From: Tildeniella nuda ZEHNDER 1965/U140
GTDB lineage: Bacteria > Cyanobacteriota > Cyanobacteriia > Leptolyngbyales > Leptolyngbyaceae
Assembly (NCBI GenBank): GCA_019358895.1
Contig: JAHHIG010000011.1
Span: forward strand, 62,001 to 126,000
Direction: 5' to 3'
DNA length: 64,000 bases
The notes under the pieces are model-generated. The model saw only the letters and a program-made list of their open reading frames with translations, was not told where the DNA came from and searched no databases. The position numbers were made by a program, and so were the translations under genes. Positions 57,444 to 63,161 of the stretch are shown one piece after another (position 1 is the first letter of the stretch; the number at the start of each line of letters is the position of its first letter).

Positions 57444-58796
57444 CTGACTACCCGCATCATCCTCGTCCGCCACGGCGAGAGTAGCTTTAACGTTGAACGA
57501 CGAGTGCAGGGTCACGGCGACAAATCTACCCTCACCGAAACTGGGCAACTGTCTGCCGATCGCGTGGGCATCGCCCTGAGCGATCTTGCCTTTGATGCGG
57601 TGTATTGCAGTCCGCTACGACGGGCAAAGGATACTGCCGATCGCATTTTGGTTCGCTTGAAGCAACCACCTGCAAAACCCCTGCAAACCACGGACAACCT
57701 GAAGGAAATCAACCTGACCGCGTGGGAAGGCAGACTGTTTAAGGACATTGCCGAGCAAGACCCAGAGGGCTACCGTGACTGGCAAACCCAGCCGCACAAG
57801 CTCAAGATGCCCATGTCTGAAGTGGCTGGAGCGGCGGACTATTACCCGGTGCCAGCGCTGTTTGAGCAAGCCGCTACCTTTTGGCGAGAAATTCTACCGC
57901 ATCATGTAGGGCAAACTGTTCTGTTGGTTGCCCACAGCGGCATTAATCGGGCGTTGATTAGCACCGCGATCGGGCTGTCGAGCGATCGCTACCAGTCGGT
58001 GCATCAGTCCAACTGCGGCATCAGCGTTTTGAACTTTGCAGGCGGCTTTGGGGAAGCGGTACAAATCGAGTCGCTCAACCTGACTGCTCATTTGGACGAG
58101 CCGTTACCAAAGCCTAGAAAAGGACAGCAGGGAGCGCGCTTTCTGCTGGTGCGTCACGGCGAAACGGATTGGAATCGTGAAAAGCGGTTTCAGGGTCAAA
58201 TCGACGTACCGCTGAACGAAAATGGACGCGCACAGTCGCTACAGGCGGCTGAGTTTCTCAAAGCGATCCCCATTCATTACGCCGTCACTAGCCCGATGCT
58301 GCGTCCGAAAGAAACTGCTGAGATTATTCTCCAACACCATCCCAATGTGCCGTTGGCGTTGGAGGACAACCTGAAAGAGATCAGCCATGGGCTTTGGGAA
58401 GGCAAGCTAGAAGCAGAGATTGAAGCGGGGTATCCCGGTACGCTGCACCAATGGCAACGATCGCCCGAAACGGTGCAGATGCCTGATGGCGAAAACCTCC
58501 AACAAGTATGGGATCGTGCGATCGCAGCGTGGGACAGCATTGTGCAAACCGCTGCCAGCCGCCCCGACCCAGGAACCACTCTGGTCGTTGCCCACGACGC
58601 AGTGAATAAGGCAATTCTCTGCTATGTCCTCGGTCTTGGAGCAGAGCATTTCTGGAACTTCAAGCAGGGCAACGGAGCCGTGAGCGTCATCGACTATGCC
58701 CAAACGTCTGCTATCCAGCCTGTTCTGATGGCGATGAATATTACCGTTCACCTGTCGGGCAGTATTTTCGACAAGACGGCGGCGGGGGCGCTTTAA
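57444..58796 (+). CDS. Tandem histidine phosphatase with apparent CTG start
   Basis: About 450 residues. The frame reads L-T-T-R-I-I-L-V-R-H-G-E-S-S-F-N from a CTG at 57444, preceded by GGAGG eight bases away; no ATG, GTG or TTG lies in frame between that point and the GTG at 57504, which would cut out the first catalytic RHG. Domain 1 (~1-210): RHGESSFN, SPLRRAKDTADR, VAHSGINRAL. Domain 2 (~225-440): LLVRHGETDWN, SPMLRPKETAEI, VAHDAVNKAIL. Plant 2-carboxyarabinitol-1-phosphate phosphatase is a related two-domain protein; the substrate here is unknown. It is divergent from the CPBP gene. Confidence 0.85.
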   Translation: MTTRIILVRHGESSFNVERRVQGHGDKSTLTETGQLSADRVGIALSDLAFDAVYCSPLRRAKDTADRILVRLKQPPAKPLQTTDNLKEINLTAWEGRLFKDIAEQDPEGYRDWQTQPHKLKMPMSEVAGAADYYPVPALFEQAATFWREILPHHVGQTVLLVAHSGINRALISTAIGLSSDRYQSVHQSNCGISVLNFAGGFGEAVQIESLNLTAHLDEPLPKPRKGQQGARFLLVRHGETDWNREKRFQGQIDVPLNENGRAQSLQAAEFLKAIPIHYAVTSPMLRPKETAEIILQHHPNVPLALEDNLKEISHGLWEGKLEAEIEAGYPGTLHQWQRSPETVQMPDGENLQQVWDRAIAAWDSIVQTAASRPDPGTTLVVAHDAVNKAILCYVLGLGAEHFWNFKQGNGAVSVIDYAQTSAIQPVLMAMNITVHLSGSIFDKTAAGAL

Positions 58797-58875
58797 GAGA
58801 GGAGGCGGAGGGCAGAAGGCGGAGGGCAGAAGGCAGAGGGCAGAAGGCGGAGGGCAGAAGGCAGAAGCTAATACA
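58797..58875. repeat. GGCAGAAGGCGGAG short tandem repeats
   Basis: Mixed 7- to 8-bp units (GGCAGAAG, GGCGGAGG) after the phosphatase gene. The same repeat type occurs at 4220, 27904 and within genes. Confidence 0.75.
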
Positions 58876-58939
58876 CCTCACACCTCACACCTCACTTCCG
58901 CGAAGAGGTAGAGGGCAGAAAGTAAAAGATAAAGGTACT

Positions 58940-59420
58940 CTCTCCAAGCTTGGCTGTCCGACCTCTAAGCTCAACTGTCCAAGTCTAAAGCTCACTCGTC
59001 TGAGTCTAAAGCTCACTCGTCTGAGTCTAAAGCTCACTCGTCTGAGTCTAAAGCTCAAGCTTTCGAGCTTCAAGCACGACTGCCCGACTTCAAAGCTCAC
59101 TCGTCCGACTTCAAAGCTCACTCGTCCGACTTCAAAGCTCAACTGTCCAAGTCTAAAGCTCAGCCGTCTGACTTCAAAGCTCAACCGTCTAAGTCTAAAG
59201 CTCAACTGTCCGACTTCAAAGCTCACTCGTCCGACTTCAAAGCTCAACTGTCTGAGTCTAAAGCTCACTCGTCCGACTTCAAAGCTCAACTGTCTGAGTC
59301 TAAAGCTCACTCGCCTGACTTCAAAGCTCAACTGTCCAAGTCTAAAGCTCACTCGTCTGAGTCTAAAGCTCAAGCTTTCGAGCTTCAGGCACGACTGCCC
59401 AACCTCTAGGTTCGCCTTTC
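58940..59420. repeat. 21-bp tandem array abutting the dihydroorotase-like gene
   Basis: More than 20 units of TCTAAAGCTCACTCGTCTGAG and variants. Each unit mixes two choices at two places: CTCACTCGTC or CTCAACTGTC, and TGAGTCTAAAG or CGACTTCAAAG. A longer variant with AAGCTTTCGAGCTTCA appears twice (59057 and 59372). The array ends ~100 bp before the ATG at 59517. A 204-codon minus-strand frame runs through it as heptads like VSFRLRR and LSFEVGQ, but a 21-bp period keeps frames open by itself. Confidence 0.8.
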
Positions 59421-59516
59421 CAACGTTGAAGCGCGATCGTTCAAGCGCAGACCTCCAACTCTCGTCCGCAAACCTCAATCCTCCAGGTTCAACACTCAAT
59501 CTTTGGCGACGTATCT

Positions 59517-60878
59517 ATGTCCAGCGAACTGCTTCAACAGGTACGAGTGATCGATCCCAGTTCCGATACCGATCGCATTGCGGATGTGCTGATTGTCGAT
59601 GGCGTGATCAGCGCGATCGAGGACGCAATTTCTGACTATCCCAGCGAAACCGCCGTGCAGAATGGTCAGGGGTTGGTTCTCGGTACTGGCTTAGTTGACC
59701 TTTACAGTCATTCTGGCGAACCGGGTTTTGAGGAACGCGAAACCCTAACCTCGCTTCTGCAAGCTGCGAGTGCTGGCGGGTTTACGCGGATCGCCATTTT
59801 GCCCGACACCAAGCCTGCGATCGATAATCCGAGTAGCGTTGCGTGGTTGCAAGGTGAGGGGAGAGGAGCAGGGGAAGCAAAGGAAGCAAGGGAGGCAGGG
59901 GAAGAGCGGTTACAAGCTTCATACCCCACTCCCCACTCCCTATTCCCCACTCCCCACCTCTACTGCTGGGGTGCCTTAACTCTGGGCGTTCAAGGACAAC
60001 AGATGACAGAGTTGGGTGAACTAGCGGCAACTGACATCGTTGGGTTTGCGGATGGTCGATCGCTCACCAGTCTTTTGCTCGTTCGTCGCCTGCTGGAATA
60101 CCTGAAGCCGATCGCAAAACCGATCGCGCTTTGGGCAGCCGATCCAACCTTGAGCGGTAACGGAGTGATGCGTGAAGGACAAGCATCGTTACAGCTTGGC
60201 TTGCCGGGGATTCCTGCGATCGCGGAGACTGCAGCTCTGTCAGCACTGTTGGAATGCGTCGAGGCGATCGGCACGCCCGTTCATTTGATGCGACTTTCTA
60301 CCGCCCGTGGTGTGACGCTGATTCAGGCTGCAAAGGCGCGTGGACTGCCAATTACTGCCAGCACGACCTGGATGCATCTTCTGTTGAACAGTGAGGCGAT
60401 CGACAGCTATGACCCCAATCTTCATATCGCGCCGCCGTTAGGCAACCCTGATGATCAAGAGGCGCTGGTGCAAGCGGTTAAGGACGGCATCATCGACGCG
60501 ATCGCCATTGACCATACACCTTACACCTATGAAGAAAAGACGGTAGCGTTTGCGGAGGCACCGACTGGCGCGATCGGTCTAGAACTGGCATTGCCCTTAC
60601 TCTGGCAGTCGTTAGTCGAAACCGAACGCTGGACAGCTCTGGACTTGTGGCGCAGTCTCAGCAGTCGTCCAGCCTTGTGTTTGCAGCAACAACCCGCCAC
60701 GATCGCACCTGGTCAACCTGCGGAACTCACGCTCTTTGACCCACAGCAAGTTTGGACAGTGGAGGCGCGATCGCTCAAATCTCTCTCAGCTAATACGCCC
60801 TGGCTCCGCAAAGAGATGACTGGGCGAGTGGTGAGAACGTGGGTCGGAAAGTCTAAAGTCTACGCGACGTGCAACTAA
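59517..60878 (+). CDS. Dihydroorotase-like protein with altered metal ligands
   Basis: 453 residues. The fold of class I dihydroorotase is kept (VLGTGLVDLYSHSGEPGFEERE, IAIDHTPYTYEEK, GLELALPLLW), but the first metal motif HxH is Tyr-Ser-His, the carboxylated Lys region (GxKIFxG) is VGFADGRSL, and the ExCPHYL block is STTWMHLLL. Catalysis is unlikely; by family knowledge, inactive dihydroorotase paralogues (PyrC') help assemble aspartate transcarbamoylase in some bacteria. Residues ~115-145 are an Ala/Glu/Gly and Pro/His/Tyr insert from short repeats. The 21-bp array lies directly upstream. The active paralogue is at 61830. Confidence 0.85.
   Translation: MSSELLQQVRVIDPSSDTDRIADVLIVDGVISAIEDAISDYPSETAVQNGQGLVLGTGLVDLYSHSGEPGFEERETLTSLLQAASAGGFTRIAILPDTKPAIDNPSSVAWLQGEGRGAGEAKEAREAGEERLQASYPTPHSLFPTPHLYCWGALTLGVQGQQMTELGELAATDIVGFADGRSLTSLLLVRRLLEYLKPIAKPIALWAADPTLSGNGVMREGQASLQLGLPGIPAIAETAALSALLECVEAIGTPVHLMRLSTARGVTLIQAAKARGLPITASTTWMHLLLNSEAIDSYDPNLHIAPPLGNPDDQEALVQAVKDGIIDAIAIDHTPYTYEEKTVAFAEAPTGAIGLELALPLLWQSLVETERWTALDLWRSLSSRPALCLQQQPATIAPGQPAELTLFDPQQVWTVEARSLKSLSANTPWLRKEMTGRVVRTWVGKSKVYATCN
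59850..59965. repeat. Short repeats inside the dihydroorotase-like gene
   Basis: GAGGGGAGAGGAGCAGGGGA and CCCCACTCCCCACTCCC tracts in the coding frame, in opposite purine sense, so the insert may have arisen as an imperfect inverted pair. Confidence 0.7.
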
Positions 60879-61632: not shown

Positions 61633-61829
61633 AGAGAGTCAAATGTAGAATAATCGCAGGCTTGAGCAAGAAAGGTGACTGAACGATTGTGCTGTCGAAC
61701 TAAAGCAGCAACGCATCACAATATAAATGCAACTGTAAACCATCTCGTCAGTTTATTTCGGAATTTCGCTCATGATGAAAGTGCTTCTCTTCTTAAACGA
61801 CTTACCGTAAACCAGTGATTAGTATTCGT

Positions 61830-63161
61830 ATGGTAGCCAATTCTACTCTCATCATCCGTCGCGCTTGTATATTGCTGCCCGACGGCGACTTTATGACAGG
61901 GGATGTCCAGCTAGTTGACGGCACGATCGCCCAAATAGCCGAAACGTTGCCCTTTACGTCCTCAGAGGATGCCACTACTGAGGTTGACGCAAGCGGTTTG
62001 ACTTTGTTGCCGGGAGTAATTGACCCCCAGGTGCATTTCCGCGAACCGGGTCTGGAATATAAGGAAGATCTGTTCACAGCGAGTTGTGCATGTGCAAAAG
62101 GTGGCGTAACGTCTTTTCTCGAAATGCCCAATACGAAGCCACTGACGACTACGCAGGCAACCCTAGACAGCAAACTGCAACTCGCGGCTCAGAAAGCTTT
62201 GGTGAACTACGGCTTTTTTATTGGCGCAACGGCAGAAGTACTGCCAGATCTGTTGCAGGCAAATCCGACTCCGGGCATCAAGATCTTTATGGGGTCAATG
62301 CACGGTCCCTTGCTAAATGATCAGGAAGAAGGACTGGAAAAGATTTTTGCGTATGGCGATCGCCTCATTGCTGTCCATGCCGAAAACCAGGCGCGCATTA
62401 TGGCACGCCGACAGCAGTTTACAGGTAGAACCGATCCAGCCGTTCACTCGCAAATTCAGGACAACGAGGCAGCGTTACAAGCAACCCAGCTTGCACTCAA
62501 GCTGTCTAAAAAATATCAGCGGCGACTCCACATCCTGCACATGTCTACCGCCGAAGAAGCCGATTTGTTGCGACACGATAAACCCACCTGGGTGACAGCA
62601 GAAGTCACACCACAACATCTGTTGCTGAACACTAGCGCCTACGAAACGATCGGTACCCTGGCGCAAATGAATCCACCACTGCGATCGCCCCACGACAACA
62701 ATGTGCTCTGGCAAGCACTCCTTGATGGCGTAATCGACTTTATTGCGACCGATCACGCGCCACACACGCTCGAAGAGAAGGCACAAACCTACCCCAACTC
62801 GCCCTCTGGAATGCCTGGAGTAGAAACGTCGTTGCCGTTGATGCTGACGCAGGCGATGCAGGGACGCTGCACCGTGGCTCAAGTCGCTCACTGGATGTCT
62901 ACGGCAGTCGCCAAAGCGTATCGGATTCCAAAGAAGGGCGCGATCGCTCCTGGCTATGATGCTGATCTAGTGTTGGTTGACCTGGATACCTATCGTCCTG
63001 TGTTGCGCGAGGAGCTACAAACCAAGTGCAAGTGGAGTCCGTTTGAGGGCTGGAGTCTGACAGGCTTTCCTGTAGTGACGATCGTAGGTGGGCAAGTGGT
63101 GTTCGATCGCGGCACCATCAATCCAACCGTGCGTGGCAAAGCGCTCAGCTTTGACGCTTGA
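61830..63161 (+). CDS. pyrC: Dihydroorotase
   Basis: 443 residues from the ATG at 61830; a GTG at 61815 is also in frame. Class I type: LPGVIDPQVHFREPGLEYKEDL (one His of the HxH pair is Gln, as often in this branch), GIKIFMGSMHGP with the carboxylated Lys, AVHAENQARI, ILHMSTAEEADLL, EVTPQHLLL, and FIATDHAPHTLEEK with the metal-binding Asp. It closes carbamoyl aspartate to dihydroorotate in pyrimidine synthesis. It is the catalytically plausible partner to the altered copy 1 kb away. Confidence 0.93.
   Translation: MVANSTLIIRRACILLPDGDFMTGDVQLVDGTIAQIAETLPFTSSEDATTEVDASGLTLLPGVIDPQVHFREPGLEYKEDLFTASCACAKGGVTSFLEMPNTKPLTTTQATLDSKLQLAAQKALVNYGFFIGATAEVLPDLLQANPTPGIKIFMGSMHGPLLNDQEEGLEKIFAYGDRLIAVHAENQARIMARRQQFTGRTDPAVHSQIQDNEAALQATQLALKLSKKYQRRLHILHMSTAEEADLLRHDKPTWVTAEVTPQHLLLNTSAYETIGTLAQMNPPLRSPHDNNVLWQALLDGVIDFIATDHAPHTLEEKAQTYPNSPSGMPGVETSLPLMLTQAMQGRCTVAQVAHWMSTAVAKAYRIPKKGAIAPGYDADLVLVDLDTYRPVLREELQTKCKWSPFEGWSLTGFPVVTIVGGQVVFDRGTINPTVRGKALSFDA

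Follow-up and report, generated by a model that had tools for sequence, protein, structure and literature searches.

The window that we analysed, a stretch of 64,000 nucleotides from Tildeniella nuda ZEHNDER 1965/U140, carries two plus-strand genes separated by 720 bp from the stop codon of the first to the ATG of the second. The upstream gene (57504..58796, +) belongs to the histidine phosphatase superfamily (Pfam His_Phos_1, 316 bits, two matched stretches). The downstream gene (59517..60878, +) is amidohydrolase/dihydroorotase-like; its Amidohydro_1 match of 22.8 bits lies under the Pfam cut-off of 25, and its relatives were found by protein similarity (Stenomitos frigidus ULC18, 86%; Leptolyngbya sp. 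FACHB-321 and Stenomitos rutilans, 81% each). Between the two genes, purine-rich heptamer and 14-mer repeats detected by TRF (58803..58867, +) directly precede a 21-bp tandem array (58943..59420), delimited by repeat-unit analysis and TRF, whose GAGCTT strand lies on minus. A reading made from the sequence alone (the sequence-only reading) had placed this array at 58940-59420, ending about 100 bp before an ATG; TRF and the unit spacing confirm it as real, and we measured 97 bp from its end at 59420 to the ATG at 59517.

The dihydroorotase-like gene itself contains, at 59853-59957, an in-frame variable loop made of a purine-rich and then a pyrimidine-rich heptamer stretch. Fischerella and Nostoc relatives (L058-L060, L115-L117, L133, L136) have loops of this kind, with other sequences, at the equivalent position, and the loop is absent in L122 and L128. 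A second amidohydrolase gene (61815-63161; Amidohydro_1, 80 bits) lies 0.9 kb past the first, with a signal peptidase gene on the opposite strand between them.

The array comprises about 20 clear units, and up to 24 if degenerate ones are included (58931-59434); TRF called 20 copies at 58954-59373 and scored periods of 42 and 105 as well. As these copy numbers rest on draft assemblies, they are possibly too low. Unit starts from 58968 to 59367 are spaced by 21 bp, with a single step of 42 at a variant unit. As previously described, the units vary at two places, with either TCTAA or TTCAA at one and either ACTGTC or CTCGTC at the other, in mixed arrangement, and the variant unit CAAGCTTTCGAGCTTCA indeed recurs after 315 bp, i.e. 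15 units (59056..59072 and 59371..59387, both +); it had been called longer, and in fact it stays in the 21-bp register and has the length of the other units. The self-identity of the array reaches 0.80 at lag 315, compared with 0.55-0.73 at all 17 other multiples of 21 up to 378, which points to a multi-unit duplication within the array. The units follow each other head to tail without spacers, which rules out a CRISPR array.

Is the array of consequence for the gene that follows it? The sequence-only reading had suggested that copy number could affect expression of that gene, and indeed the array ends close to the ATG and parts two genes whose stop and ATG lie only 5 bp apart in G034, a member of the same genus. 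A search at E<=1e-40 detected the downstream gene in 6 of the 7 genomes of the genus (none in G039), and the array is present at this junction in the source genome only (1/6). The junction holds six AAAACTC copies in G036; in G035, G037 and G038 it contains various heptamers, of which one to three are CTCAAAACTC-like and lie on the array-matching strand. Since the array is missing at the junction in five relatives, the downstream gene does not need it. Moreover, a scan of 58750-59560 revealed no site resembling a promoter or terminator, and folding of the array RNA gave z-scores of only -1.07 and -1.19 for the two strands, i.e. no folding signal. It is thus very unlikely that the array acts as a regulatory element whose copy number tunes the dihydroorotase-like gene: the suggestion is not supported, nothing that we observed shows the array controlling this gene, and most likely the array has little or no function for its neighbour.

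A second 21-bp array of the window (array 1) had been reported as one block at 1470-1925. It exists, spanning 1464-1930, and is not continuous: TRF resolves it into 1466-1525 and 1645-1919, with about 120 bp of non-repeat sequence in between. The two arrays were also said to share a core, a claim that we could not uphold. In ungapped circular alignments of two consensus units of each array, the best identities were 9-11 of 21, at the level of shuffled sequences (p = 0.25, 0.27, 0.53 and 0.86), and the arrays did not find each other by blastn in the source genome at E<=10; we therefore rejected their relatedness. A genome search for further arrays, as had been advised, yielded 10 more sites for the array before the dihydroorotase-like gene (array 2) and none for array 1. 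At the thresholds used, array 1 and its interrupting stretch each occur only once in the source genome, and the stretch, being a lone copy, was dismissed as a dispersed element.

The genome contains other arrays of this size. In a TRF sample of 464 kb (400 kb of the source genome on a grid plus the window), all seven arrays with a period of at least 20 and at least 4 copies have a period of 21 or a multiple of it. Same-size families in the source genome are the family of array 2, hereafter the GAGCTT family, array 1, L071, L079 and L021, with 42/63-bp forms in L088 and L089; their unrelatedness was tested (ungapped) for arrays 1 and 2 and judged from the consensuses for the others. Arrays with other units on a 21-bp lattice were seen at L071 3028-3218, L079 1811-2204, L089 2528-2773, L021 2556-2811 and L284 6105-6351. 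An internal 7-bp signal is present in array 2 (0.35 vs 0.22) and not in array 1 (0.27 and 0.25 vs 0.25); it is likewise absent in L071, L088 and L284, the last from another family of the phylum, and weak in L079, L089 and L021. Thus, a heptamer origin does not explain the 21-bp size generally, and we rejected it as a general cause.

The GAGCTT family (GAGCTTnGAnnTCGGA...) is scattered across the 6.08-Mb genome of this Stenomitos-type cyanobacterium, mostly at gene junctions, with at least 11 arrays found by blastn and a two-unit pattern, one of which (C8) is situated no more than about 200 bp from a contig end. When up to one mismatch is allowed, the pattern occurs in 6 of the 7 genomes of the genus, G037 having no match at all, and in a single one of the 35 other genomes from the family, while the reversed pattern gave 0 matches in all 42. 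When no mismatch is allowed, a sample of 386 genomes from the phylum yields the source genome alone (0/385 others); the reversed control matched once, in G165.

What is the unit made of? Over 24 arrays (11 from the source genome and 13 from relatives, some of them mutually orthologous), identity peaks at lag 21 (0.75); lags 7 and 14 follow with 0.46, and all remaining lags below 21 give 0.17-0.29. This pattern shows that the unit consists of three diverged heptamers, mostly starting with GA, and can be written as GAGCTTn-GAACTCG-GAnnnTC. Heptamers of cyanobacteria are known as short tandemly repeated repetitive (STRR) sequences, a name and class originating with Calothrix. In contrast to these, the amplified unit here is 21 bp and not 7, and the heptamers within it are only about 46% alike; given the lag-7 and lag-21 identities, the array is derived-looking rather than itself an STRR run. 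PMC4692102, which deals with G-rich heptamers of Xanthomonas and Nostoc, describes heptamers that keep their junctions while varying in sequence, as the arrays do here, and whose G-rich strand prefers the non-coding strand upstream of genes or the coding strand downstream.

One heptamer, GAGTTTT, was picked beforehand because it abuts arrays. It fits the units in register at 0.54, compared with 0.09-0.30 in the six other registers, and is the best of its 105 permutations and ahead of 18 TRF heptamers from the 464-kb sample. When 121-bp windows spanning the 5' edge and taking in the first unit were scanned, the heptamer appeared on the array's own strand in 8 of 24 arrays and on the opposite strand in none (0/24). 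These eight represent six sites once orthologues are merged (L004, L028/L031, L030, L032, L039, L054/L056). At least two copies are found at this edge in 7/24 arrays, compared with 0.14% of random windows drawn from the source-genome sample, genes included. At the 3' edge, the counts are 1/24 (same strand) and 2/24 (opposite strand). Only one of the 11 source-genome arrays (L004) has an edge GAGTTTT, the array in the window having none. The consensus heptamer GAGCTTG fits the units better (0.65), as it must, so that descent from GAGTTTT itself can only be inferred. By TRF at score 50, no GAGTTTT array appeared in the source-genome sample; a 17-base GAGTTTT-type run has 57 matches at <=1 mismatch in that genome.

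Heptamer runs and arrays are found joined, or as alternatives, at orthologous junctions of sister species. At the junction of a MraW-family methylase and an O-methyltransferase, 4 of 7 genomes carry arrays, with 6 (G034), 8 (G036), 13 (G035) and 13 (G038) in-register units, and those of G034 and G036 are directly joined to AAAACTC runs; G000, the source genome, and G039 have no array, and G037 has a different upstream sequence. At the C30 junction, arrays of 13 units in G000 and 12 in G038 (2/7) correspond to an AAAACTC run in place of the array in G034. In the stretch compared, G035, G036, G037 and G039 have no array there; G036 and G039 may have other neighbours. Altogether, five or six sites bear same-strand arrays in at least two species. 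Site and strand are kept among orthologous arrays; units and copy number are not, as the unit order is not shared between orthologues and the mean identity of 0.62-0.75 is near the 0.64 found between non-orthologous arrays. Within arrays, the mean identity is 0.71. Slippage or unequal exchange, already proposed in the sequence-only reading, is supported by this higher identity within than between arrays, by the 315-bp duplication and by the unit counts at the MraW-family junction. Sister species in which one junction holds a heptamer run, an array or both would allow the birth of a bacterial higher-order repeat to be followed.

The arrays also show a strand bias. After merging of orthologues, the co-directional junctions that carry an array have the GAG strand antisense at 11 sites (window, L098, L100, L102, L104, L105, L109, L113, L114, L199, L202) and sense at two (L099, L112), with a two-sided binomial value of 0.022, or 0.057 if the doubtful sense case L204 is added. 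Gene calls for this count came from a custom hexamer scorer and not from annotation, and the count covers neither divergent sites (L095, L097/L196, the second L196 array, L198, L200, L203, L205) nor convergent (L103, L195), contig-end (L096) and in-gene (L101) ones. We speculate that avoidance of ribosome-binding-like sites may be one cause of the bias: GGAG, GAGG or AGGA ahead of a start codon is present on the GAG strand of 5 of the 11 source-genome arrays (42 instances), on the other strand of one (3 instances), and on neither strand of the window array. Inheritance of the bias from GAGTTTT runs was rejected, since these runs are split 6 to 5 over 11 co-directional sites (30 loci of the 57 matches; 22 sites examined, of which 10 in short predicted frames and one convergent were dropped). 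In intergenic regions, a purine run precedes a pyrimidine run in 6 cases to 2, numbers too few to uphold such an order.

Do the arrays encode a protein? An open frame of 204 codons runs through the window array on the minus strand (58885..59499). It starts with TTG, has no Pfam match and is not considered a gene. A heptad-repeat protein in the minus-strand frame LSFEVGR / SSFELGV would agree with this frame being stop-free in 9 of the 11 source-genome arrays, with the top share of synonymous differences in one frame of the other strand (0.39, a raw share without a null), and with the C31 array (G000, L101 3802-6333), which lies inside an 843-aa frame and has counterparts with frames through similar linkers in G038 and G035. 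Over the 24 arrays, however, no frame falls clearly below the stop-count null from column shuffles: the minus-strand SFELG frame contains stops in 9 of 24 arrays, 34 in total compared with a shuffled mean of 37.6 (fraction as low, 0.06). The third-position excess is alike in 24 intergenic arrays (median 1.36) and four linker arrays (1.10-1.49; p 0.80), the 7-bp substructure is not a codon multiple, and the C31 counterpart has one stop in G037 and consists of two separate frames with no array between them in G039. As neither a kept-open frame nor a codon-phase constraint was seen, we rejected the heptad protein, which we regard as extremely improbable. The earlier caution that the period alone keeps frames open proved apt: open frames are uninformative here.

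As far as the accessible text of PMC8161180 (Subirana and Messeguer) goes, bacteria, Cyanobacteria included, possess a class of repeats of constant size (20-21 nt), mostly non-coding and in species-specific families. The array is a member of this class: it shares with it the 21-nt unit, the several unrelated same-size families per genome, the confinement to close relatives and the seldom conserved array length, and it is non-coding in its intergenic copies, the in-frame C31 array being the exception. It differs in that its unit is a heptamer trimer in the GAGTTTT register, an architecture not mentioned in that part of the source. The same text proposes nucleoid or small-RNA roles for constant-size repeats. 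Since 21 bp corresponds to two helical turns, a putative protein could assemble along one face of an array, with a nucleoid or insulator role. The uniform period of the sampled arrays despite several unrelated sequences, the antisense strand at 11 of 13 clear sites and the retention of site and strand in some relatives despite unit turnover would fit such functional DNA, and the latter two could indeed reflect function. Its presence is nevertheless patchy, with arrays in one of six genomes at the window junction, in four of seven at the MraW-family junction and in two of seven at C30, and one member of the genus has no pattern match at all. Moreover, we know of no protein that binds these arrays, and we consider this explanation unlikely. 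Still somewhat less likely is a constraint on the 21 bp as such, in which a putative protein would read spacing and not sequence, so that several unrelated strand-biased satellites would be kept at co-directional junctions, the GAGCTT family having reached the lattice by heptamer trimerisation.

We consider it probable that the family is a non-coding, genus-specific and largely neutral satellite. A GAGTTTT heptamer run would have diverged, and a block of three heptamers would then have become the new repeat unit. The resulting 21-bp arrays may have been copied to other gene junctions, plausibly via homology to GAGTTTT runs already present there; slippage and unequal exchange would homogenise them one locus at a time. 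They would be retained at sites that tolerate an insertion, for the most part junctions of co-directional genes, where the GAG strand is antisense. Eukaryotic higher-order repeats such as alpha satellite likewise arise when a block of diverged monomers is re-amplified and locally homogenised. The arrays described here resemble them in both respects; unlike alpha satellite, they are bacterial, a few hundred bp long and located at gene junctions, with no centromere, and thus represent an analogue and not a member. This reading joins heptamer runs and constant-size 21-nt repeats, which we found described only apart in the portions of the literature searched. While the size class is already published, the heptamer-trimer architecture and the use of an array as a protein linker are new.

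This linker is encoded by the C31 array, which contributes about 140 residues with a high content of Ser, Glu, Leu and Pro and joins two glycosyltransferase-9 matches in the single 843-aa frame. No match to this frame was found in G034 and G036 at E<=1e-30, and linkers of this type differ strongly between species (L101, L262, L263, L264). Here, satellite DNA serves as a protein linker between glycosyltransferase parts that another species encodes in two separate frames. Near the C31 array, a 114-bp direct duplication with 98% matches is present (L022 2605-2831).
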